In this document: positions 22,432 to 62,617 of the stretch, piece by piece | Numbering within the stretch: the first letter of the stretch is position 1 | How the letters are laid out: the number at the start of each line of letters is the position of its first letter | Origin: Rhodococcus sp. KRD162 | Lineage (GTDB): Bacteria > Actinomycetota > Actinomycetes > Mycobacteriales > Mycobacteriaceae | Direction: 5' to 3' | DNA: 64,000 bases | NCBI RefSeq assembly: GCF_017168335.1 | Contig: NZ_JABFAU010000003.1 | Span: 709,561 to 773,560 of the forward strand | Program-made: the position numbers and the translations under genes | Notes under the pieces: generated by a model | What the model was told of the DNA's origin: nothing | Database searches by the model: none | The model's input: only the letters and a program-made list of their open reading frames with translations

Positions 22432-23673
22432 ATGCATTCTTGGTCGAGCCCTGAGATCCCGACAATCCCCGGACAGGGTCCAGCGCTTCGATTGTTCGAC
22501 ACCGCAGACCGTCGGGTTCGTCCCGTCACCCCGGGTTCGACTGCTTCGATGTACGTGTGCGGCATCACCCCGTACGACGCCACCCACCTCGGCCATGCCG
22601 CCACGTATCTCACGTTCGACCTGATCAACCGGTTGTGGCGGGACGCGGGCACGGACGTGCACTACGTACAGAACGTCACCGATGTCGACGATCCACTGTT
22701 CGAGCGCGCCGATCGCGACGGTGAGGACTGGCGTGATCTCGGCGCCCGTGAGATCGAACTCTTCCGCGCCGATATGGAAGCGCTGCGGGTGATCGCACCG
22801 CGCGACTACATCGGTGCCGTCGAGTCCGTGAACGAGGTCGTCGAACTGGTGGAGAAACTGGTTGCGGCCGGTGCCGCCTATGTCGTCGACGATGCTGAAT
22901 ACCCGGACGTGTACTTCAGCGCCGCCGCGACCGAGCAGTTCGGCTACGAGTCCGGTTACGACCGGCCCACGATGGACAGGTTCTTCGCCGAACGCGGCGG
23001 CGATCCGGATCGGGCGGGTAAGCGTGATTCCCTCGATGCGCTGCTCTGGCGTTCGGTGCGACCGGGTGAGCCGTCGTGGCCGTCGCCGTGGGGTCCAGGT
23101 CGGCCTGGCTGGCACATCGAGTGCGCGGCGATCGCGCTCAACCGGATCGGGTCCGGGTTCGATATTCAGGGCGGTGGAAGCGATCTGATCTTCCCGCACC
23201 ACGAATTCTCGGCCGCGCACGCCGAGGCTGCTACCGGTGATGCCCGCTTCGCCCGGCACTACGTGCACACCGGAATGATCGGACTCGACGGCGAGAAGAT
23301 GTCCAAGAGTCGCGGCAACCTGGTGTTCGTCTCGAAACTACGCGCGGAGAACGTCGACCCGGCCGCTGTGCGACTCGGTCTGCTCGCCGGCCACTATCGG
23401 CAGGATCGGCCGTGGTCCGACGAGGTCCTCGAACGCGCCCACACCCGCCTGGCACTGTGGCGTCGGGCGGCGGCACTCGAGAGCGCGGCATCGGCCGAGG
23501 ACGTGATCAACCGGTTGCGGCAACATCTTGCCGATGACCTGGACACTCCGAAGGCACTCGACGCGCTCGATGCGTGGGCGAGTTTCGCGGTAGAACGCGG
23601 CGGGTCGGACGCGAGCGCACCCGGAGGCTTCGCCGATGCCGTGGATGCTCTGCTCGGAGTCCGTTTGCGCTAG
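22432..23673 (+). CDS. mshC: Cysteine:1D-myo-inosityl 2-amino-2-deoxy-alpha-D-glucopyranoside ligase
   Basis: 413 aa. A class I cysteinyl-tRNA-synthetase-like catalytic domain without the tRNA anticodon-binding module. [14 protein letters not shown] at residues 43-56 contains zinc ligand Cys43 and the HxGH-type signature; KMSKS is at 289-293. MshC adenylates cysteine and joins it to GlcN-Ins, the penultimate step of mycothiol synthesis, so this organism uses mycothiol as its main low-molecular thiol. The length and the [11 protein letters not shown] variant separate it from CysS. The stop overlaps by four bases the stop of the convergent jetD gene. Confidence 0.95.
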
Positions 23674-24941
23674 GCCTCGGGGCCGAGGCGTAGATCCGCC
23701 AGCAGGTCGGCTATCAGTCGCTCCTCCATGACTGCTCTACCTGAATCACGCAGGGCAGCAGCCAATTCCGGGGCCCATCGGCTTTCCGTCGGATGTCCCT
23801 TCAACGGTTCGGAGTAGCGTGCGTCGAGCGCGTGGCGATAGGCGTCGACGTCCATCCGCCACGGCACCGCGTCGTATCGGGAGACCGCTCGGGTCACCAT
23901 GTGCACTCCGGCCCAGTCGAAATCGGCACGCCAGCGGACGGTGGTTCCCGGCGCGCGGAAAGCGAGCAGTCGGTGTACCGCGGCGGAGGGCTGACCATCG
24001 GTGCAGATCAGGCTCGCGCAGTTCGACCCGAGGGTGCGGGCTGCGGCGGCGAGAACCGCCACGTTCTCGCAGACGAACACCGTGGACGAGCTGTTGGTGA
24101 GCGAACCGCGCATGAGCATGTCCACCGTGACCGGAAAGGGAACGCCCTCGTCGGCTGCCTCGTTCAGCCACCGTGCCACTGTGTGGGTTTCCTCGACGCG
24201 GTAGCCGAGCACCAGCACGCGGCTGGACAACGCATCGACCGACACGCCCGCGGTTTCCCACAGCGCTCGGATGCCCACCGGATCGGCGGGGCGAGGAACG
24301 TTCTCGCGCAGAGACAATGCGTCGAGGACGAGTTTCGGGGCACCGCCGCCGGAGAGCGCCTTGGTGTCTCCGCAGGCCAGTTCCGCGAGCTCGGTCAAAG
24401 ACATTCCGTCCACCGGGAGCTGGGCGAGGACCTGCGTGGCGATCGCCAACGCGTCGACGGCGACGCGGCCGCCGAGGGTGCCGTCCTGGTTGAGCAGCGA
24501 GGCGATCCAGTGCTCGATCCATTCGCGGTCGGTGCCGCCGCCGAGAACCGCCCTGGTCCGATCGAGGGCATCGGCACGCACCTGCGCCTTGTCGGCAGCG
24601 ATCCGTTTCTTGTCCTGCAACGGCGCCTGCCGAGTGAGAGTGTCGATCAGTCCGAGGCCACCGTTGAGCGGATGTCGCAGCCACGCGTCGAACCGTTCCA
24701 GGTCGAGCCTGGTACTTCGTGCCCGCGAATGCAGGCTGGAGTTGGACCGCGAGATAGCACTGCACAGGCGCCACAGTTCCGGGGCATCGCTCAGATCCAC
24801 CGTGATGTTGCCCCCTACACGAAGCCAGTTGGACTCCAACTTCTTTCGCGCAGCGTCCAGCAAGGCCCCCAGTTCGGGGCTGCCTCGCCAGTCGCTGTTA
24901 CCGGTCAAACTCCAGCCCACCTTCGGTTCGGGTCGGGACAC
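23670..24941 (-). CDS. jetD: Wadjet JetD-like TOPRIM protein (DUF3323/DUF2399, TIGR02679 type)
   Basis: 423 aa, GTG at 24941. The N-terminal half (to about 260) is helical and matches DUF3323-type proteins. The C-terminal DUF2399 part is a TOPRIM fold: catalytic Glu292 in [10 protein letters not shown] and the DxD pair Asp340/Asp342 in [12 protein letters not shown]. In Wadjet systems JetD is the nuclease subunit that cuts plasmid DNA extruded by the SMC complex. Its start lies 44 bases inside jetC, so translation is coupled. Family identity is from recall of the domain architecture and from the four-gene context. Confidence 0.87.
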
Positions 24942-27900
24942 GCCGCGTCAACGGCGAACCGAGTGCGGCGGCAAGGTCGGTTCCGTCGTGCTCGGCGAAC
25001 AGTTCGCCGTTCTCCCACACCAGAAGTGCTGCGCTCACGGTGTTCTCGGCGGTCGAGTGGGCCAGATCGTAGTGCGCACAGCCTGGAACATCCGCGTAGG
25101 TGATCCACAGGTCGTACCCGGTCATGAACAGATCCAGATCGAACTGCACACTGAGACCGAGCAATTCGCTTCGACCGTTGTCGTCGACACCGGCGAACGC
25201 CTCGTCGAGCGCAAGCAGACGGGGTGAGTGCGGATCTGCGGACGAGAGCATCACGTGCGCTGCGGCGAACAGTGGGAGATGCAGCGACACCGACTGCTCG
25301 CCGCCCGAGAGGGCGCTGTGTCGTGCGACGGTGAGTCGATCCTCGTTCCCGTCACCGCTGATCAGTGTGAAGGCGAACACGCGCCAGCGCCGATAGTCCA
25401 ACGTGGCCGACAGGATCTCGGGGTACGACCGCTCCGGATGCGCCGCGCGAGCGATCCTGATCTCCGAGGCGAAATGAGCTCGCATGGCAGCGAGATCGTC
25501 CTGGCTCAACGCCGATGCATCACGATCGAGCAGCTTGGACACCGCTCGAGCGCCGTCGTCGAGATTGTCGGCCAGCACCCAGTGCACACCGATCGTGTTA
25601 CCCGAGGACATCCGGCGTTGCTTCATCTCGGCGGACATCTGCGCGATCAATTCCCGCGCGTCGACCGTGCGTTCGTGAATCTGCTGCGCAAGACCGGTCA
25701 GCAAAGCATCCTCGAGAATGCGCCGTTCCTGCTCGGTCAGCAACAGCTCCTGATCCGATCTCGCGGCGCCGATTCGCTCGGCGAACTCGCCGACCGAGGA
25801 GTACCCCTGCTCGTCTTGTACTCGAACAACGGTCAGACCGTCCGGTGCGTCCCATTGCAGGCGGTAGTCCTGTCCCGAGGCGGCGAGCTGCGAGTCGAAT
25901 TCCTGCAACGCACTCGTCAGAGCGGTCCGGGTCGACTTTCGGCTCGAATCACTGACTTTCACCGAGGCCGTCGCCGTGTCCAGCGCAGCATGCAGCGCGC
26001 GCACCACCGGCGGAAGCACAGGCACCTCGTCGTCGGGACCGTCGGCCTGCTGTACTCGATACAGAATCTGCTCGACGGTCAGCCAGGCCGACTCGCTGGC
26101 TGGCCACGCGTATCCATCGTGCACGCCGAGGATTGCGAGCAGGTCCTTGCGGGCGTACGGAGCGAGCCGCCCCGCATCACCGAGCGTTTCGGTGACGGCC
26201 GCACGTAGGCTCTCCATCGCCGTGTTGCGCGCACCCTCGGCCTTACCGATCGCTTCGCCGGCTTCCTTGTCCGCCTTGCGTGCGGCCCGCTGCTCGGCGC
26301 GGCATTTCTCGATGCGCACCCGGGCGTTCTCGAGATCGGTATCGATCTGTTCGGCGGTCGCGCCGAGCTTCTCGCTCAGTAGCTCCAGGCGTTGGACCTG
26401 TTGCCGGTAGCTTTCGTCTGCGATCGCCGCTTCCTCGGCCAGTTCCTCCGCCAGGCCGGATGCTTCTTCGAGTCGGTTGGTCGCCTCGCGGGCGCGTTCG
26501 GCCTCGCGGGTGTGGTCGGCACGTTTGCGAATCACGGCCGACCCCTGGTTCTCGAAATGCCGAATCGCCGCCGCGAGGGCATCGATGTCTCGGCCGATGT
26601 GTGGGGTGCGGTGTGCCACGGCCGCGGTGCGCAGCTGTTTTTCCTTCGCTGACAGGTCTGCGATCGCCTGGTCGAATTCGCGGTCGGCGGCCGCAGAGCT
26701 GTCTGTGGAGGTGCGCAGCGCGCCGGCGGCGGCGGTGACCACCCGCAGCGCCTTCGTGATCGCAGTAGTACGCGGAAGCTGCTTGGCGGCAGCTCCGAGC
26801 GACTGCAGGAGTTCACGCGCGCCCTGTTCCGCCGCGGTTGCGGTGTCCAGGGCTGCGGCGGCGGCGTCGATGGCTGCATCGAGTTCGGCGACACGTTGCT
26901 GACGTCGACGTGCCCGCGCCGTGGCACCGATGTACTCGGCATCGGATTTAGTGTGGCGTCCCTGCTGCACACCCTGGAAATATCGGCCTTCGACGCCCAC
27001 CGAGACAGCGCTGCCCGATGGCTCGTCCTGATCTTGCTGCAGTGCAACCGATTCGAGCAGCTCGAGGATTCGTGCTTCCGGTACGGAAGTGCCTGCCTCC
27101 GGTTCGAGCACGGAGGCCAAGGTCGCCCCGGTCGGTCGGGCGGCTCGAGGCAGCGGCGACAGATACTGCTCGGAGCTCGACTCGTCGGGGAAGTCTGCGG
27201 TCGGGTGGATCCATCCGTCGAGCACATTGGCCGCCTGCAATGCCGACTCGATGCCGGCAGCGTCGGCGGCGGAGACGGTGTCGGCGAACCGCACCAACTT
27301 CCACAGTGGTGCACCCGACAGGCCGTCGCGAGAGTCGCTTCGTGCCGCGAACGGCGGTGGCGCGTCGTCGCGTTCGGCCTGCACCAGCGCCAATTCCTCA
27401 CGCAGCGTGTTCAATTCGGTCGCACGTGCGCTCACGTCGACGCGGGCCTGCGCCTGCCGGGCCCGGATCGAATCTATTCCGTCGGCGGTGTGCTCGGCGA
27501 GGACGGATTCCAGACTCACGGCGTCGTCGTCGCCGATCTCTGCCAGCGCCGCGTCGAGAGCATCGAAGACAGCGGAGGTGATCCCGGCGGAGGAATACAG
27601 TGCCGAGTTGGTCGACCACCACGCGCGGAGGCCGGTGGCGAAGTTCGCCTTCTCGACGTCGACGGCTGCCTCCGCCTCGGTGACCGCTGCGGTAGCCGTC
27701 TCGAGCAGCTCCCGCCCTTTCGATGCGGCCTTCTCGGCACGTGCGCGTTCGGTCGAGGCCTTCTCGACGGTTCCCAGCGCCTCGCGGACCGCGCGTACGT
27801 CACCGTCGCGTTCCTCGGCGTGGCCGCGCAGTGCGGTGCTGAGTTGATCGCTTCGAGCCGATCCCGGCAGCGGAGTCCAGACGATTCCTGCATCTTCTGC

Positions 27901-29082
27901 GGCGGTCTGCAACTCTTCTTCGGCGCGGGTCACCGCGGCGACGGAATCACGTAGGGCAGCTTCGGCTCGGGTGGCCTCGGCAGTGCGCTGCTCGAGATCT
28001 GCCTGGGCCTTGCGTGCGCGCTCGGCTTGCTGGGCTGTCGAGGTCTCGAGCTTGGCGGCCGATTCGGCCAGGTCGTCCAGTTGCTGCTTGCCCTCGTATG
28101 CGCTCGAACGCTGCAGGGTCTCGCGGTCGGCGACCGCCTGGTCGAGAGCGCGTTCTGCCTCGTCGAATCGAGTCTCCGCAGCGGCTCGTTCCAGTAGACG
28201 ACGGTGCTCGAGGGCCGCAGCCGCGAAGTGCGCGGTGGTCGCATGGGTCACTGATTCGAGTCGACGTGAGACCTGCTCGACATCGGAACGAGCCTGCACG
28301 CGAAGGTATTTGGAATACACGGAAACGAAGCTCTTGGCTGCATGGTCGGCTTGGGCAAGGCCTTCCAACGCGCGGCCCACTTCTTCCATGTCGCTGAAGG
28401 AACGTGCGGCCTCGAGCACCAACTGTTCGTCGAGGGGGCGTAGACCGTCGGTCAACGCCTGCGAGAGTCCTTTGGGGTCCAGATTCTTGGCCAACTGCGG
28501 ACGGCGAAGGGTCAGAATCAAGTTGATGAGCTGGTCGTAGCGTTGTGCACCGAGCCCGAACATGCGCGCGTCGATCGCGGCGCGGTAGTCCACCGGTCGA
28601 TCCGTCAACGCATCGGTGCCCAACTGTTCGCCGAGTTGCTTCTTCGTCAGCGGCCGGTCGTCGGAACCCAACAGCGAAAAGTCCACGCCCACGCGGCCGT
28701 CGGCGACGAAGTACCAGCGGGTCACCTTGTCGTTGTGCCGACTGGCCCGCATGCCGATTCCGACGGTGACCGATTCGGGATCTTCGCGCGAACCCCGTCC
28801 GAACTCCATCCACACATACGAGTGCGCGCTTTCCTGCCCTCGGTAGAGCAGGTTGGATTTCATCGTTCGCTCTTCTCCGGCAAAGGGATTGAGTCGGCGC
28901 GGTTCGATGCGGCCGTCGAGAACGAATGGAAACAGCACTTCGAGTGCTTTGGTCTTGCCCGAGCCATTCGGGCCACGCAGCACCAGGCGACCGTCGGCGA
29001 ACGAGAACTCCTGATCGCGGTAGTCCCAGAGGTTGACGATTCCTGCTCGCATCGGCCGAAAGCGAGTCGAGTGTGCGGTCAT
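24898..29082 (-). CDS. jetC: Wadjet JetC-like SMC/MukB-type ATPase (TIGR02680 type)
   Basis: 1394 aa. The N-terminal ATPase lobe begins RFRPMRAGIVNLWDYRDQEF and has Walker A GPNGSGKT at residues 37-44. A long Ala/Glu/Arg-rich coiled coil (about 250-560) leads to a small hinge-like domain (about 575-700, with WKLVRFADTVSAADAAGIE) and a second coiled-coil arm to about 1010. The C-terminal lobe has LSGGEQ at 1258-1263 and Walker B RLLALDEAFAG from 1288 (Asp1293, Glu1294). It is the loop-extruding motor of a condensin-like defence complex. The ATG follows the jetB TAG with no gap. Intact, with no frameshift. Confidence 0.92.
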   Translation of the reverse strand: MTAHSTRFRPMRAGIVNLWDYRDQEFSFADGRLVLRGPNGSGKTKALEVLFPFVLDGRIEPRRLNPFAGEERTMKSNLLYRGQESAHSYVWMEFGRGSREDPESVTVGIGMRASRHNDKVTRWYFVADGRVGVDFSLLGSDDRPLTKKQLGEQLGTDALTDRPVDYRAAIDARMFGLGAQRYDQLINLILTLRRPQLAKNLDPKGLSQALTDGLRPLDEQLVLEAARSFSDMEEVGRALEGLAQADHAAKSFVSVYSKYLRVQARSDVEQVSRRLESVTHATTAHFAAAALEHRRLLERAAAETRFDEAERALDQAVADRETLQRSSAYEGKQQLDDLAESAAKLETSTAQQAERARKAQADLEQRTAEATRAEAALRDSVAAVTRAEEELQTAAEDAGIVWTPLPGSARSDQLSTALRGHAEERDGDVRAVREALGTVEKASTERARAEKAASKGRELLETATAAVTEAEAAVDVEKANFATGLRAWWSTNSALYSSAGITSAVFDALDAALAEIGDDDAVSLESVLAEHTADGIDSIRARQAQARVDVSARATELNTLREELALVQAERDDAPPPFAARSDSRDGLSGAPLWKLVRFADTVSAADAAGIESALQAANVLDGWIHPTADFPDESSSEQYLSPLPRAARPTGATLASVLEPEAGTSVPEARILELLESVALQQDQDEPSGSAVSVGVEGRYFQGVQQGRHTKSDAEYIGATARARRRQQRVAELDAAIDAAAAALDTATAAEQGARELLQSLGAAAKQLPRTTAITKALRVVTAAAGALRTSTDSSAAADREFDQAIADLSAKEKQLRTAAVAHRTPHIGRDIDALAAAIRHFENQGSAVIRKRADHTREAERAREATNRLEEASGLAEELAEEAAIADESYRQQVQRLELLSEKLGATAEQIDTDLENARVRIEKCRAEQRAARKADKEAGEAIGKAEGARNTAMESLRAAVTETLGDAGRLAPYARKDLLAILGVHDGYAWPASESAWLTVEQILYRVQQADGPDDEVPVLPPVVRALHAALDTATASVKVSDSSRKSTRTALTSALQEFDSQLAASGQDYRLQWDAPDGLTVVRVQDEQGYSSVGEFAERIGAARSDQELLLTEQERRILEDALLTGLAQQIHERTVDARELIAQMSAEMKQRRMSSGNTIGVHWVLADNLDDGARAVSKLLDRDASALSQDDLAAMRAHFASEIRIARAAHPERSYPEILSATLDYRRWRVFAFTLISGDGNEDRLTVARHSALSGGEQSVSLHLPLFAAAHVMLSSADPHSPRLLALDEAFAGVDDNGRSELLGLSVQFDLDLFMTGYDLWITYADVPGCAHYDLAHSTAENTVSAALLVWENGELFAEHDGTDLAAALGSPLTRRVPTRTEGGLEFDR

Positions 29083-30519
29083 CTACTGAGCCTCTGCTTC
29101 GGGGAATTCGGTACTGGCGGTCTGTTCGGTGCTGGCGGGTTGCTCGGTGCCGAACAACGAATCCTGCGGGGTTCGATCACGCACGCTGACCATCACGTCT
29201 CGGTAGCGCGCGATAACCGGAAGCACCAGCACGCCGCCGGACACGCTGTGTACGAGGCGAAGTCGATGAAGCAGAGCAAGTGCCCGCAACCGGAGACCAT
29301 TCTTGTCGGTCTGCCACTGTGCTGCGAAGGTTCGGCCGAATCGCTCGACGAGATCATCGACGACCGACGCCAGCCAGCTGTCCTCGATCAGTGGATACTG
29401 TTGCCTTGCCGGGTTTCGGTCGACTGTCCTCGGTTCGGAAGACAATCCGAATTCGGCGAGATCGCCGAAGATCCCGCCGTCCGGGATTGCTGTGTCCAGC
29501 TGTTCGATCAGGGCGTCTGCGTCCGGAAGCGGATAGGTTGGCAGCTTCGGTGCATCCGGATCGATCACGCGGTCCGAGATTTCACCCGCGATCAGTAGCG
29601 CGACCTGAGCAATGGTGCCCGTACTGGGGAATCGGTAGTCGGACAGCCGCCCCGAGCTGTCGATGAGCGCCACCCCCTCGGAGCGACGCTCGGCGGTCAG
29701 GCCGGTGAGAAGTTCGACTTCGCCGACCGTGCGAGAGGCGGCAAGTGCTGCTTTTCCGTCCGAATCCAGGTCGTCCAGATAGACCACCGGCTGTTCCACC
29801 AATGCTCGTCGTACCGCGCGCAGCGTTTCCTTCGGGTCGACGGGTCGCTCGGGATCGGGACGCTCCGGATCGGCTTCGTCGGAGTCGATCGGGGCATCCG
29901 GGCCTGCCAGCAACCCTCGAACGGACCGTAGATGTTGTACGGCGCGGGGCGGCCGGAACATCGCCACGATGACGGGGCGGTCGATGTCGTAGAGCGCTTC
30001 GCCAGCGGACGGATTGTGGGCCCAGCCGGTCGCATCACCGTCTGCCAACGCGATCGCGCCGCGGGTCGCCAGCCAGCCGATCGCATCGACGAAGGCGTCG
30101 CGGTCGCTCGCACGATCGGTGGTGAGCTCGACTCCGTCGACCTGGCTTGCTTCTACCGCAACGTGATCGGCGAGTTCGGAGAGGGTGATCTGGTTGCCGG
30201 CTCGACCGAGGGCCGCCAGTGCCAGCGACAGGTACGCGTATCGACGACGGTCGAAGATTCGCTCGGTGGACGTCCGTGCGGGTTGGCTGTCGTCGAGTCG
30301 GTCGATCACCGGGAACAGTCGTGCAGTGGTCTCGGTGACCTCGAGTCGATACCCGAACAACTCGAGCAGATCCTCGCGCAGCTCGGTGGCCCATCTGCGC
30401 AGCAGTGGCAGAGCGATTCGATCGGGGTATGTCGCGGTGACCAGGTGATTCGACAGGGCCACCCGCGCAGCGCGCTGGTAGGAATCCAAGGCGAGCGACG
30501 AGATTTCGCGAGCTCTCAT
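29083..30519 (-). CDS. jetB: Wadjet JetB-like protein (DUF2398, TIGR02678 type)
   Basis: 478 aa from ATG 30519, which overlaps the jetA stop by four bases (ATGA); the longer open frame upstream is jetA antiphase. The N-terminus has MRAREISSLALDSYQRAARVA, then winged-helix-like segments (LSLALAALGRAGNQITLSEL). The C-terminus ends in an acidic, Thr/Glu-rich tail after residue 450. In this family the protein is the KITE-like (MukE-like) accessory subunit; which of the two accessory proteins is kleisin and which is KITE is inferred from gene order. The jetC start abuts its stop. Confidence 0.85.
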   Translation of the reverse strand: MRAREISSLALDSYQRAARVALSNHLVTATYPDRIALPLLRRWATELREDLLELFGYRLEVTETTARLFPVIDRLDDSQPARTSTERIFDRRRYAYLSLALAALGRAGNQITLSELADHVAVEASQVDGVELTTDRASDRDAFVDAIGWLATRGAIALADGDATGWAHNPSAGEALYDIDRPVIVAMFRPPRAVQHLRSVRGLLAGPDAPIDSDEADPERPDPERPVDPKETLRAVRRALVEQPVVYLDDLDSDGKAALAASRTVGEVELLTGLTAERRSEGVALIDSSGRLSDYRFPSTGTIAQVALLIAGEISDRVIDPDAPKLPTYPLPDADALIEQLDTAIPDGGIFGDLAEFGLSSEPRTVDRNPARQQYPLIEDSWLASVVDDLVERFGRTFAAQWQTDKNGLRLRALALLHRLRLVHSVSGGVLVLPVIARYRDVMVSVRDRTPQDSLFGTEQPASTEQTASTEFPEAEAQ

Positions 30520-32039
30520 CGGCGAGCTACCTCGCTGACGTCGAGCGAGAGGCGATCGAGATGCAGTCGCCCTCGGGTGGTCTGCACGATGGTCGAGCGG
30601 TCGCTGTCGCTGAGGGTCAGTCGCACGCCACTGTCCGATCCGGACGAGTCGGAGGTGCGTCCGCTCACCCGGACCCGCGCGGTCAGTGCGGCGTTCAACA
30701 GGCTCAAGAGCACCTCGGTTTCCTGCTCGTCGAGCACTCGGTCGTGGATTCCGGCCGAGGCCAGCGACTGCGCCGCGGCACTGCGTGAACGCTGCGCCTC
30801 CAGCTGCTGTTCTCGCAGTCGTCTGATGCCACCGTCGTTGCGCTGTACTCGGCCCGGTACACCGGGAGTCGGAGTGCGGCCGGTCTCGGCCAAGGTCCGC
30901 GATATCTCGACCGGAGCTGCCTCCCACCACGATCGCGATGTCGAGATGATGTCCGCGTCGGGGTGGACCATGGACAGATGTCGTGGTTTACCGAGGCCGA
31001 ACACGGCGTGGAACAGGGCGTGGGCACTATCTTCGGTGGGTGCAGCAGCGAACCATCCGGCGAGGTGGCGTAGTTGGCTTTCGCGACTGACACCGCCCTT
31101 GCGGGTTTCGGTGACCCGACGCAGCAGCGACAGCACGGCGGCGATTGCGCTCATCGTGCCTTCGCGGAGGCGGTCGGACTCACTGAGTTCGGACTCGGCC
31201 GAGACGAACCAGTGCGAGAGCCCCGCCCAGCGGTCGGTCCAGTCGGCGCGACGTTCGGCCACGGTGAGAAACACTCGTTCGTCGCTGACGGCGGCGCGCT
31301 CGATCAGATCCTCGATGCCGGTGGCCTCGACGAGTGCGATCGCGTCGGCGAGTTTCGGTGCATAGCGTGTGAGGTCGGAGCTGAACTCGCGCATGTGTGA
31401 GAGCAGCGCATCCTTGTGGACCAGGAAGGACTCGGGTGTGATCTCGGTGGTGCGCACCAGATCGCCGAGCACCAGGTAGAAGTGTGCCGCGCGGCTCGCC
31501 ATCTCGGACAACGTCGAGTCGAGCCGACTGAGCTTTCGATAGATGCGATCGCCGTCGCCCTGACGGTTGGCCTCGGCGAGCTCGTGCATGTCGGCGAGCA
31601 GCTCGGGCAGCACCAGCCGCGACAGCGAGGCGTCGTCCAGGCGTGCGCCGAGCACATCCTCGACGGCGCGATACGCCTTGTATCCGGCTTGCCCGAATTG
31701 GTACACGAAGTGGCGATTGCGGTACTCGGCGAGAGTCGCGGCTCGGGTGCCGTCGTAGCTGCGTTCGAGCAGGCCCCAGGCGTGTAGCTGGTCGAGCAGA
31801 GGGGCGATGTCGAGTGCCGTCATACCCTCGTGCCGAACGGGGCCGCGGGCGAGGAGTTCGGCCACGTCGCCCGAATGCAGCAGGACCACGTAGTTGGCGC
31901 GAGCAGTGTCGAAAGCACGCAGAACCGAAAGGTATTCGGATCGCTTCTCGGCGACGGCGAAGGAGAAGAGACCGAGCCGATCTTCCTCCACGAAGGCGTT
32001 CGCGACTCCCAGCCGCGTGTCCTCACCTGAATCGCTCAC
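30516..32039 (-). CDS. jetA: Wadjet JetA-like protein (DUF2397, TIGR02677 type)
   Basis: 507 aa, GTG at 32039. It starts LGLFSFAVAEKRSEYLSVLRAF and contains ALDIAPLLDQLHAWGLLERS, which reads as a winged helix, then long helices (ADMHELAEANRQGDGDRIYR). I match it to the TIGR02677/DUF2397 family, always found as the first gene of this four-gene unit and inferred to be the kleisin-like (MukF-like) bridge of the SMC complex. Six bases upstream is a TACCCT hexamer and, just beyond, four 33-bp repeats. No Shine-Dalgarno is seen, consistent with a leaderless start. Confidence 0.86.
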   Translation of the reverse strand: MSDSGEDTRLGVANAFVEEDRLGLFSFAVAEKRSEYLSVLRAFDTARANYVVLLHSGDVAELLARGPVRHEGMTALDIAPLLDQLHAWGLLERSYDGTRAATLAEYRNRHFVYQFGQAGYKAYRAVEDVLGARLDDASLSRLVLPELLADMHELAEANRQGDGDRIYRKLSRLDSTLSEMASRAAHFYLVLGDLVRTTEITPESFLVHKDALLSHMREFSSDLTRYAPKLADAIALVEATGIEDLIERAAVSDERVFLTVAERRADWTDRWAGLSHWFVSAESELSESDRLREGTMSAIAAVLSLLRRVTETRKGGVSRESQLRHLAGWFAAAPTEDSAHALFHAVFGLGKPRHLSMVHPDADIISTSRSWWEAAPVEISRTLAETGRTPTPGVPGRVQRNDGGIRRLREQQLEAQRSRSAAAQSLASAGIHDRVLDEQETEVLLSLLNAALTARVRVSGRTSDSSGSDSGVRLTLSDSDRSTIVQTTRGRLHLDRLSLDVSEVARR

Positions 32040-32051: not shown

Positions 32052-32058
32052 GGGGGTC

Positions 32059-32190
32059 AGGAGAGGAGCCTGCGGAACGACCCAAGGGAACAGCAGAGGA
32101 GCCTGCGGAACGACCCGGGGGAACAGGAGAGGAGCCTGCGGAACGACCCGGGGGAACAGGAGAGGAGCTTGCGGAACGACCCGGCGACAC
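32059..32190. repeat. Four tandem 33-bp direct repeats upstream of jetA
   Basis: Copies at 32059-32091, 32092-32124, 32125-32157 and 32158-32190, head to tail without spacers. The core of each is GAGGAGCCTGCGGAACGACC (plus strand). Copies 2 and 3 differ at one base; copy 1 differs from copy 3 at two bases (AA for GG after the ACCC); copy 4 diverges at its last bases and has a T for C. They fill most of the 182-base gap between the nirD stop and the jetA start. The frame through them on the plus strand is open but has no homology support. Confidence 0.95.
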
Positions 32191-61648: not shown

Positions 61649-62617
61649 ATGAGCGGCCCAAACGGTCCGACCGATTCCGACAACAGTTGGTCGCGCAATC
61701 CCGACCAGCAGGACGGTACCGCGAAAGACACTCCGGAATCACCCGCGGCTCCGCCTTCGCATACCGGCTCCACTCCTGAGCAGGGTTCGCAGACCCCGGC
61801 ACCGTCCGCGTGGGGGCCGTACGCACAGCCGCCCGCAGCGCCGAACACGCCCTACGGTGAATCCGCGCCGGGTGGTTACGGGCAGAGTCCGCAACCACCC
61901 GGCAACCCGTACCCGCAGGGGCAGTATCCCTCTGCAGGCTATCCACAGGGCCAGTACCCGCAAGGCGGTTACCCACAGGGGCAGTACCCGCAAGGCCAGT
62001 ACCCGCAAGGCGGCTACCCCCAGGGCCAGTACCCGACCACGCAGAATCCCGCACCGCAGAATCCCGCACAGCAATACCCGGCCGGCCAGCAGTACGGCAC
62101 GCCGTATCCCGGGGCCGGTGCCCAGGGGCCCGGGGATCCGGCCTATCAGAATCCGTACGCCCCACAGCAATACGGCGGTGGTCAGTACGGTCCCGGTCAG
62201 TACGGTCAGCAGCCTCAGCAGCCGTGGAACCCCAACCAGCAGTATCCGAATCAGCAGTACCCGAATCAGCAGGGTCCAGGTCAGCAGGGGCCAGGTACCG
62301 CCGGGTCGCAGTCGAAGAAACCTCTGATCATCGTCGGTGCCGTCGTCGCTGTGGTCGCGGTGATCGCTCTGGTCTCGTTCTTTGCCTTCGGTCGGTCGAC
62401 CGTTCTGGATACTGCGGCCGCACAGGAGGGTGTCCGCAAGGTCGTCACCGAGTCCTACGGTGCTTCCGAGGTGTCCGGGGTGTCCTGCCCGCAGAACATC
62501 AGGGTCGAGAAGGGTGCGAGCGTCGACTGCACGCTGACGGTCGACGGAGCGTTCAAGAAGGTGACGTTGACCTTCCTGGACGACGACGCCAACTACGAGG
62601 TCTCGCTACCGAAATAG
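61649..62617 (+). CDS. DUF4333 membrane protein with Pro/Gln/Gly/Tyr-rich N-terminus
   Basis: 322 aa, ATG at 61649 behind GGAGGCG. Residues 1-222 are disordered and contain eight YPQGQ-type pentapeptides (88-127) and further NQQYP repeats. One transmembrane helix (about 227-249, [20 protein letters not shown]) exports a C-terminal DUF4333 domain of about 70 residues with two cysteines (SCPQNI and DCTLTV) that probably form a disulfide. Equivalent in position to Rv2091c. The role is unknown; a cell-envelope interaction is likely. Confidence 0.88.
61910..62029 (+). repeat. Eight in-frame 15-bp repeats encoding YPQGQ-like pentapeptides
   Basis: Units read [40 protein letters not shown]. Codons vary between copies, so the repeat is held at the protein level more than as DNA. 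Possible site of length variation. Confidence 0.9.

Follow-up and report, generated by a model that had tools for sequence, protein, structure and literature searches.

The window analysed here is a stretch of 64,000 nucleotides from Rhodococcus sp. KRD162 (RefSeq assembly GCF_017168335.1, contig NZ_JABFAU010000003.1, positions 709,561 to 773,560), a Rhodococcus of the Rhodococcoides group whose 5.90-Mb genome is assembled in 109 contigs. Positions 23670-32039 of its minus strand hold four adjacent, co-directional open frames in the order A-B-C-D, which resemble the Wadjet (JetABCD) plasmid-defence systems built around an SMC ATPase:

30516-32039, minus strand: jetA, type II kleisin-position subunit (DUF2397/TIGR02677); 507 amino acids, GTG start; PF09660 469 bits, TIGR02677, PADLOC JetA2 605 bits; JetA of PDB 9qe0
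29083-30519, minus strand: jetB, type II KITE-position subunit (DUF2398/TIGR02678); 478 amino acids, ATG start; PF09661 217.7 bits, TIGR02678, PADLOC JetB2 705 bits
24898-29082, minus strand: jetC, SMC ATPase (TIGR02680); 1394 amino acids, ATG start; PADLOC JetC2 1437 bits; JetC of PDB 9qe0
23670-24908, minus strand: jetD, TOPRIM nuclease (DUF3323 and DUF2399); 412 amino acids from a conserved TTG, 423 from GTG 24941; PADLOC JetD2 369 bits

The genes are tightly joined. jetA and jetB share an ATGA overlap (30516-30519), and jetC begins one base past the jetB stop, at zero spacing, both as stated in the first-pass annotation, which had been made from the letters of this DNA. Its third joint, a 44-base overlap of jetC and jetD, fared less well, because the GTG at 24941 on which it depends is poorly conserved: of the 19 relatives in which this place holds a codon, only 3 have a start codon. 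Better conserved is a TTG at 24908, shared by 18 of the 19 sequences that cover its position, including that of the window; a GTG at 24920 is shared by 11 of 20. Translation from the TTG gives a JetD of 412 amino acids and an overlap of 11 bases, the length annotated for two plasmid loci of Streptomyces (L092, L093), as compared to 423 amino acids and 44 bases from GTG 24941. The alignments thus make 24908 the more likely start.

All four proteins match Wadjet families in the curated libraries Pfam, NCBIfam and PADLOC, which bears out the Wadjet identity proposed earlier. As the best E-value is at most 1.6e-19 for every Jet protein in each of the three libraries, these are not chance matches. 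In Pfam, JetA matches PF09660, JetB PF09661 and JetC SbcC_Walker_B, each above cut-off, and so does JetD with PF09664 (137.6 bits) and PF11796 (92.5 bits). In NCBIfam, TIGR02677 scores 229.9 bits with JetA (cut-off 165.85), TIGR02678 126.8 bits with JetB (cut-off 124.65) and TIGR02680 722.9 bits with JetC (cut-off 462.85). Accordingly, the five profiles that the first-pass annotation had singled out for a search (PF09660, PF09661, PF09664, PF11796 and TIGR02680) were all matched over cut-off, as were three of the four NCBIfam families it had named. A sequence search of the PDB returned as only significant relatives the JetC (E 3.4e-73) and the JetA (E 4.7e-15; 9qe0) of entries 9qe0/9qe1, which we take to be the Wadjet II structure of Neobacillus vireti. 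For JetC, no MukB model was listed up to E 0.01 in Pfam or NCBIfam, which presumably contain one.

The type of the system follows from the PADLOC models. Since all four proteins score best to a type II model (JetA2 605, JetB2 705, JetC2 1437 and JetD2 369 bits), we assign the locus to Wadjet type II, and we consider it highly probable from these comparisons that the window carries a complete jetABCD system of this type. JetC reached 38 bits against the type I model JetC1, versus 1437 for JetC2, and no type III model was listed for any of the four proteins up to E 0.01. Type III, which had been put forward in the first-pass annotation, did not stand up to this result and is very improbable, assuming that the type labels of PADLOC are right; Table 4 of PMC12915292 likewise gives Wadjet_II for Rhodococcus erythropolis. 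Some observations weigh against a complete type II defence system. The fourth NCBIfam family named, TIGR02679, scored 183.4 bits with JetD, under its cut-off of 196; the PDB search gave zero matches for JetB up to E 1 and no credible match for JetD; and a core position amid housekeeping genes, as described below, is atypical for a patchy defence system.

The sequence motifs of the two enzymes are in place. The 1394-residue JetC has an intact Walker A motif (GPNGSGKT, 37-44), signature motif (LSGGEQ, 1258-1263) and Walker B motif (LLALDEAF, 1289-1296), just as first described. The TOPRIM residues pointed out at the same time, E292, D340 and D342 of JetD (numbered from GTG 24941), are present and invariant in an alignment of 17 JetD proteins that includes that of the window; by family membership, they are the putative catalytic residues. 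Among jetD-bearing loci (8 pairs for each gene), the median omega was 0.056 for jetA, 0.116 for jetB, 0.065 for jetC and 0.107 for jetD, with jetD ranging from 0.085 to 0.155, which indicates purifying selection. With all four parts intact and each under purifying selection, the window most likely holds a working Wadjet II, and the system is probably functional.

The surroundings of the jet locus look like housekeeping genes. They encode a methylmalonyl-CoA mutase, MeaB, a Cys-tRNA-synthetase-like protein (the gene for which we take to be mshC), a nirB-like and a Rieske (nirD-like) protein, a PAC2 protein, a B12-dependent methionine synthase, HisG, a PD-(D/E)XK nuclease, a proteasomal ATPase, two Pup-ligase family proteins, a PafC-domain protein and a DSHCT helicase. 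No transposase or integrase was found among the 24 other open reading frames (ORFs) of the window searched against Pfam. The host genome as a whole has one DUF2399 match and a separate SMC_N frame of 1222 amino acids, which we read as the canonical SMC. The search for promoter-like sites gave 0, with 0.5 expected. Immediately upstream of jetA, at 32052-32184, lie four head-to-tail repeats of 33 bases. Relatives of 32-34 bases occupy the equivalent place in the close relatives L003, L004, L007 and L043, further matches stand elsewhere in L002, L004, L023 and L043, and the plasmid collection gave zero matches. From this distribution, the array appears to be a dispersed intergenic repeat, not a jet operator. 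Another set of tandem repeats, of 15 bases, is located at 61909-62296 within the ORF 61649-62617, where it apparently encodes a low-complexity stretch.

JetABC belongs to the core of the genus. JetC is present in 37 of 37 genomes, the host's own included, and a second genus of the same family (g22) has JetA in 25 of 26; in a sample spread evenly over the phylum, JetA was above cut-off in 24 of 328 genomes. For a closer comparison, we used the best 80 of 367 loci found, a choice that biases this set of named loci to close relatives; the named relatives belong to Rhodococcus and Rhodococcoides, with a JetC identity of up to 91%. Within the available flanking DNA, mshC was found in 41 of the 80 and a PAC2 gene in 54, and elsewhere the flank does not show them. 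JetC distances correlate with those of mshC (Mantel r 0.863, 42 loci) and PAC2 (Mantel r 0.782, 55 loci; window included in both), and the JetABC tree agrees with taxonomy. We read this as vertical inheritance of the jet locus across Rhodococcus and Nocardia. A survey of Actinobacteria describes Wadjet as unusually common in this phylum and as encoded together with other systems in 73% of 97 Rhodococcus genomes (PMC10482375). Two jetA matches are irregular, one with a single in-frame stop (G031) and one ending early (L004); both are possibly broken copies or sequencing errors.

The nuclease gene shows another distribution. Within the 80 named loci, jetD directly follows jetC in 20 and does not in 60, two of which end too early to judge, so that jetD is absent in 58 of 78 informative loci; the R. 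erythropolis locus L081 is also without it. The distance from the jetC match to the mshC match is 1231-1300 bases in 18 jetD-bearing loci, 55-67 bases in 7 jetD-less loci and 567-7267 bases in the remaining 16 jetD-less loci with mshC. At the level of whole genomes, 29 of 37 in the genus and 2 of 26 in g22 contain DUF2399, whereas a jetD-less genome of the genus (8 in all) has no DUF2399 at any position. Among 301 genomes sampled from the family, JetA was above its cut-off in 131 and DUF2399 in 44; by hand count, 41 of the 131 JetA genomes also have DUF2399 and 90 do not, and the remaining three DUF2399 matches are weak and lie in genomes without JetA. Of the 21 JetA-bearing genomes from outside the family, 20 have DUF2399 somewhere in the genome, some of them with JetA and DUF2399 on separate contigs or as fragments (G350, G401, G482); in the exception, G460, JetA is only a fragment. 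The difference between JetA-bearing genomes within and outside the family gives a Fisher p of 1.9e-8, with relatedness ignored. A JetC search of 151 genomes yielded 56 (counted by hand) with a core JetC, defined by an identity of 53% or more. DUF2399 lies beside the core JetC in 9 of these, only beside a second, distant copy in 4 and nowhere in 43.

The DNA downstream of jetD-less jetC was inspected as well. No jetD relics were detected within 3 kb (seven JetD queries, E 0.05), and the ORFs of the first 2.5 kb, which were listed and clustered with most not searched against a library, included no nuclease-like gene common to the jetD-less clades; their clusters follow clades. As a possible replacement, two long ORFs that follow accessory copies of jetC (L096:7311-9083 and L097:7702-9090) were considered and rejected: they have no family match, and from their translations they were judged to be antisense shadow frames. 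Four genomes of genus g21 (G095, G146, G157, G167) have a jetD-less core JetABC plus a second, distant locus with DUF2399, and so combine a core motor with an accessory Wadjet. Distant JetABC copies, whose JetC shares about 30-39% identity with that of the window, were also seen in L096 and L097 (genus g26) and in L098 and L099 (genus g13). Neither the second JetABC copies in nine g26 genomes nor the sole copies in four g13 genomes have a DUF2399 of their own in the genome (that of G169 adjoins its core locus), and these copies may be further nuclease-less lineages.

On the JetABC tree (83 rows), jetD changes state at least 6 times, and a single-gain rule gives 13 losses; the JetD tree is poorly resolved and was not used for counting. 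Its shared position and the co-divergence of JetD with JetC (Mantel r 0.986 for jetD versus jetC distances, 21 loci) favour a single ancestry of jetD, though gains are also possible. The clearest loss is seen in R. kyotonense KB10 (L010 and L100, one and the same locus), which is nested among jetD-bearing species. Here, jetC is full-length and followed by a strong hairpin (-37.6 kcal/mol, z -5.1) and then by mshC. In the openly licensed literature, we found no account of jetD being lost repeatedly from a core type II locus of Rhodococcus or Nocardia.

Loci without jetD show no sign of JetABC decay, either in the motifs or in omega relative to mshC. Every row compared, 59 of 59 without and 21 of 21 with jetD, has Walker A and LSGGEQ (L073 left out; L052, in which jetD is undecided, counted as jetD-less), and Walker B in the 59 reads LLALDEAF in 49 and LLGLDEAF in 10. 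The raw jetC omega was higher without jetD (0.134, 28 pairs) than with it (0.065, 8 pairs; p 0.0017). We discount this contrast because mshC shifts likewise (0.074, 9 pairs, versus 0.044, 8 pairs; p 0.02) and many pairs are distant. Relative to mshC, jetC omega was 1.72 in jetD-less (10 pairs) and 1.48 in jetD-bearing loci (8 pairs; p 0.59), jetA showed no clear shift (p 0.27) and jetB was under stronger constraint without jetD (p 0.001); as some pairs are distant and samples small, a mild relaxation of JetABC could escape detection. Alignment columns that track jetD numbered 1, 2 and 1 in JetA, JetB and JetC, which does not exceed the yield of random lineage sets (averages of 1.4, 1.5 and 3.7). 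Given that jetD is often absent in relatives and JetABC retained, JetABC seems worth keeping without JetD. This suggests that JetABC also has a nuclease-independent role, and an SMC function free of the nuclease, on the chromosome or on plasmids, would be the simplest account of jetD-less JetABC.

With the known Wadjet type II systems (PADLOC JetA2/B2/C2/D2; nvJET of N. vireti), the window shares the four families, the gene order and the ATPase and TOPRIM motifs. It differs in that its locus is core in the genus and stands among housekeeping genes, and in that relatives there are often without jetD. All four plasmid-borne type II loci inspected (L092-L095; 26 plasmid records had a JetC match) have the order jetABCD. 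One of them, L094 on a 149-kb circular plasmid of Alicyclobacillus dauci, adjoins a PemK/MazF-family toxin gene and two genes annotated as cas12b. According to PMC12647877, which cites the N. vireti structure paper, nvJET cleaves naked circular DNA, has no donut-shaped hinge and is unable to bypass obstacles. MukBEF and MksBEF without MksG have the same trio of SMC, kleisin and KITE-like subunits, and 90 of the 131 JetA-bearing family-sample genomes resemble them in being without DUF2399; the window's copy differs by carrying the nuclease and by a JetC without a listed MukB match. Wadjet type I, including MksBEFG of Corynebacterium glutamicum, follows the same four-subunit logic with a TOPRIM nuclease but uses other subunit families, the window having DUF2397, DUF2398 and DUF2399. 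The JetD of one relative (L101) barely reaches the Pfam JetD_C cut-off, with 22.0 bits. Several members of the Wadjet group, MukBEF included, are described as nuclease-free in PMC7617805, where a genome survey is published, and a 2023 review speculates that MukBEF and MksBEF may have a past as defence systems (PMC10586767).

How, then, is the window's locus to be understood? It might mainly be a chromosomal condensin of the MukBEF/MksBEF kind, with JetD as a dispensable add-on of little defence value. The presence of JetC throughout the genus and of JetA in nearly all of g22, often beside mshC and PAC2, would fit this, as would the frequent absence and repeated state changes of jetD and the lack of a detectable difference in jetC and jetA constraint relative to mshC. 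Where jetD is present, however, it is under purifying selection with an invariant active site, the genome has the 1222-residue SMC_N frame as its apparent canonical SMC, and pairs without jetD have the higher raw jetC omega. For the type I relative MksBEFG of C. glutamicum, moreover, PMC7083940 reports no chromosomal role. Taken together, we consider the condensin explanation unlikely, if still to be reckoned with. Less probable again is that jetD-less JetABC continues to restrict plasmids with the help of an unrelated nuclease whose gene lies elsewhere, in which case loss amounts to replacement. The searches used would miss a non-homologous nuclease acting in trans as well as a JetD that has diverged beyond the reach of PF09664; yet no gene common to the jetD-less clades takes the place of jetD in the first 2.5 kb downstream of jetC, the 7 loci with the shortest gap have the mshC match almost directly behind that of jetC, and the 8 jetD-less genomes of the genus have no DUF2399 at all.

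A more far-reaching, tentative reading, to which we give somewhat less than an even chance, is that Rhodococcus and Nocardia captured a type II Wadjet at a site on the chromosome and domesticated it. JetABC would then be a core SMC machine that works independently of the nuclease and JetD an optional cutter that was lost many times, once recently in the window's own group. For the complete system of the window, the mechanism in this host, from loop extrusion through circle sensing to cleavage, is inferred from the family. Two JetABC motor units would be loaded onto DNA and, driven by ATP, reel it into loops; if the DNA is a small closed circle, they would exhaust it and stall, and the stalled state would activate the TOPRIM nuclease of JetD, by which the plasmid is cut.

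Counts of defence systems can, as our data suggest, include nuclease-less loci: for R. erythropolis NI86/21, Table 4 of PMC12915292 has three proteins under Wadjet_II, and the R. erythropolis locus L081 is jetD-less. If capture and domestication are true, the window would represent a present-day intermediate between a plasmid-defence complex and a MukBEF-like condensin, along the evolutionary route that has been proposed. As a single syntenic locus has close relatives with and without the nuclease, this step, namely the job of JetABC after JetD is gone, would be directly testable.

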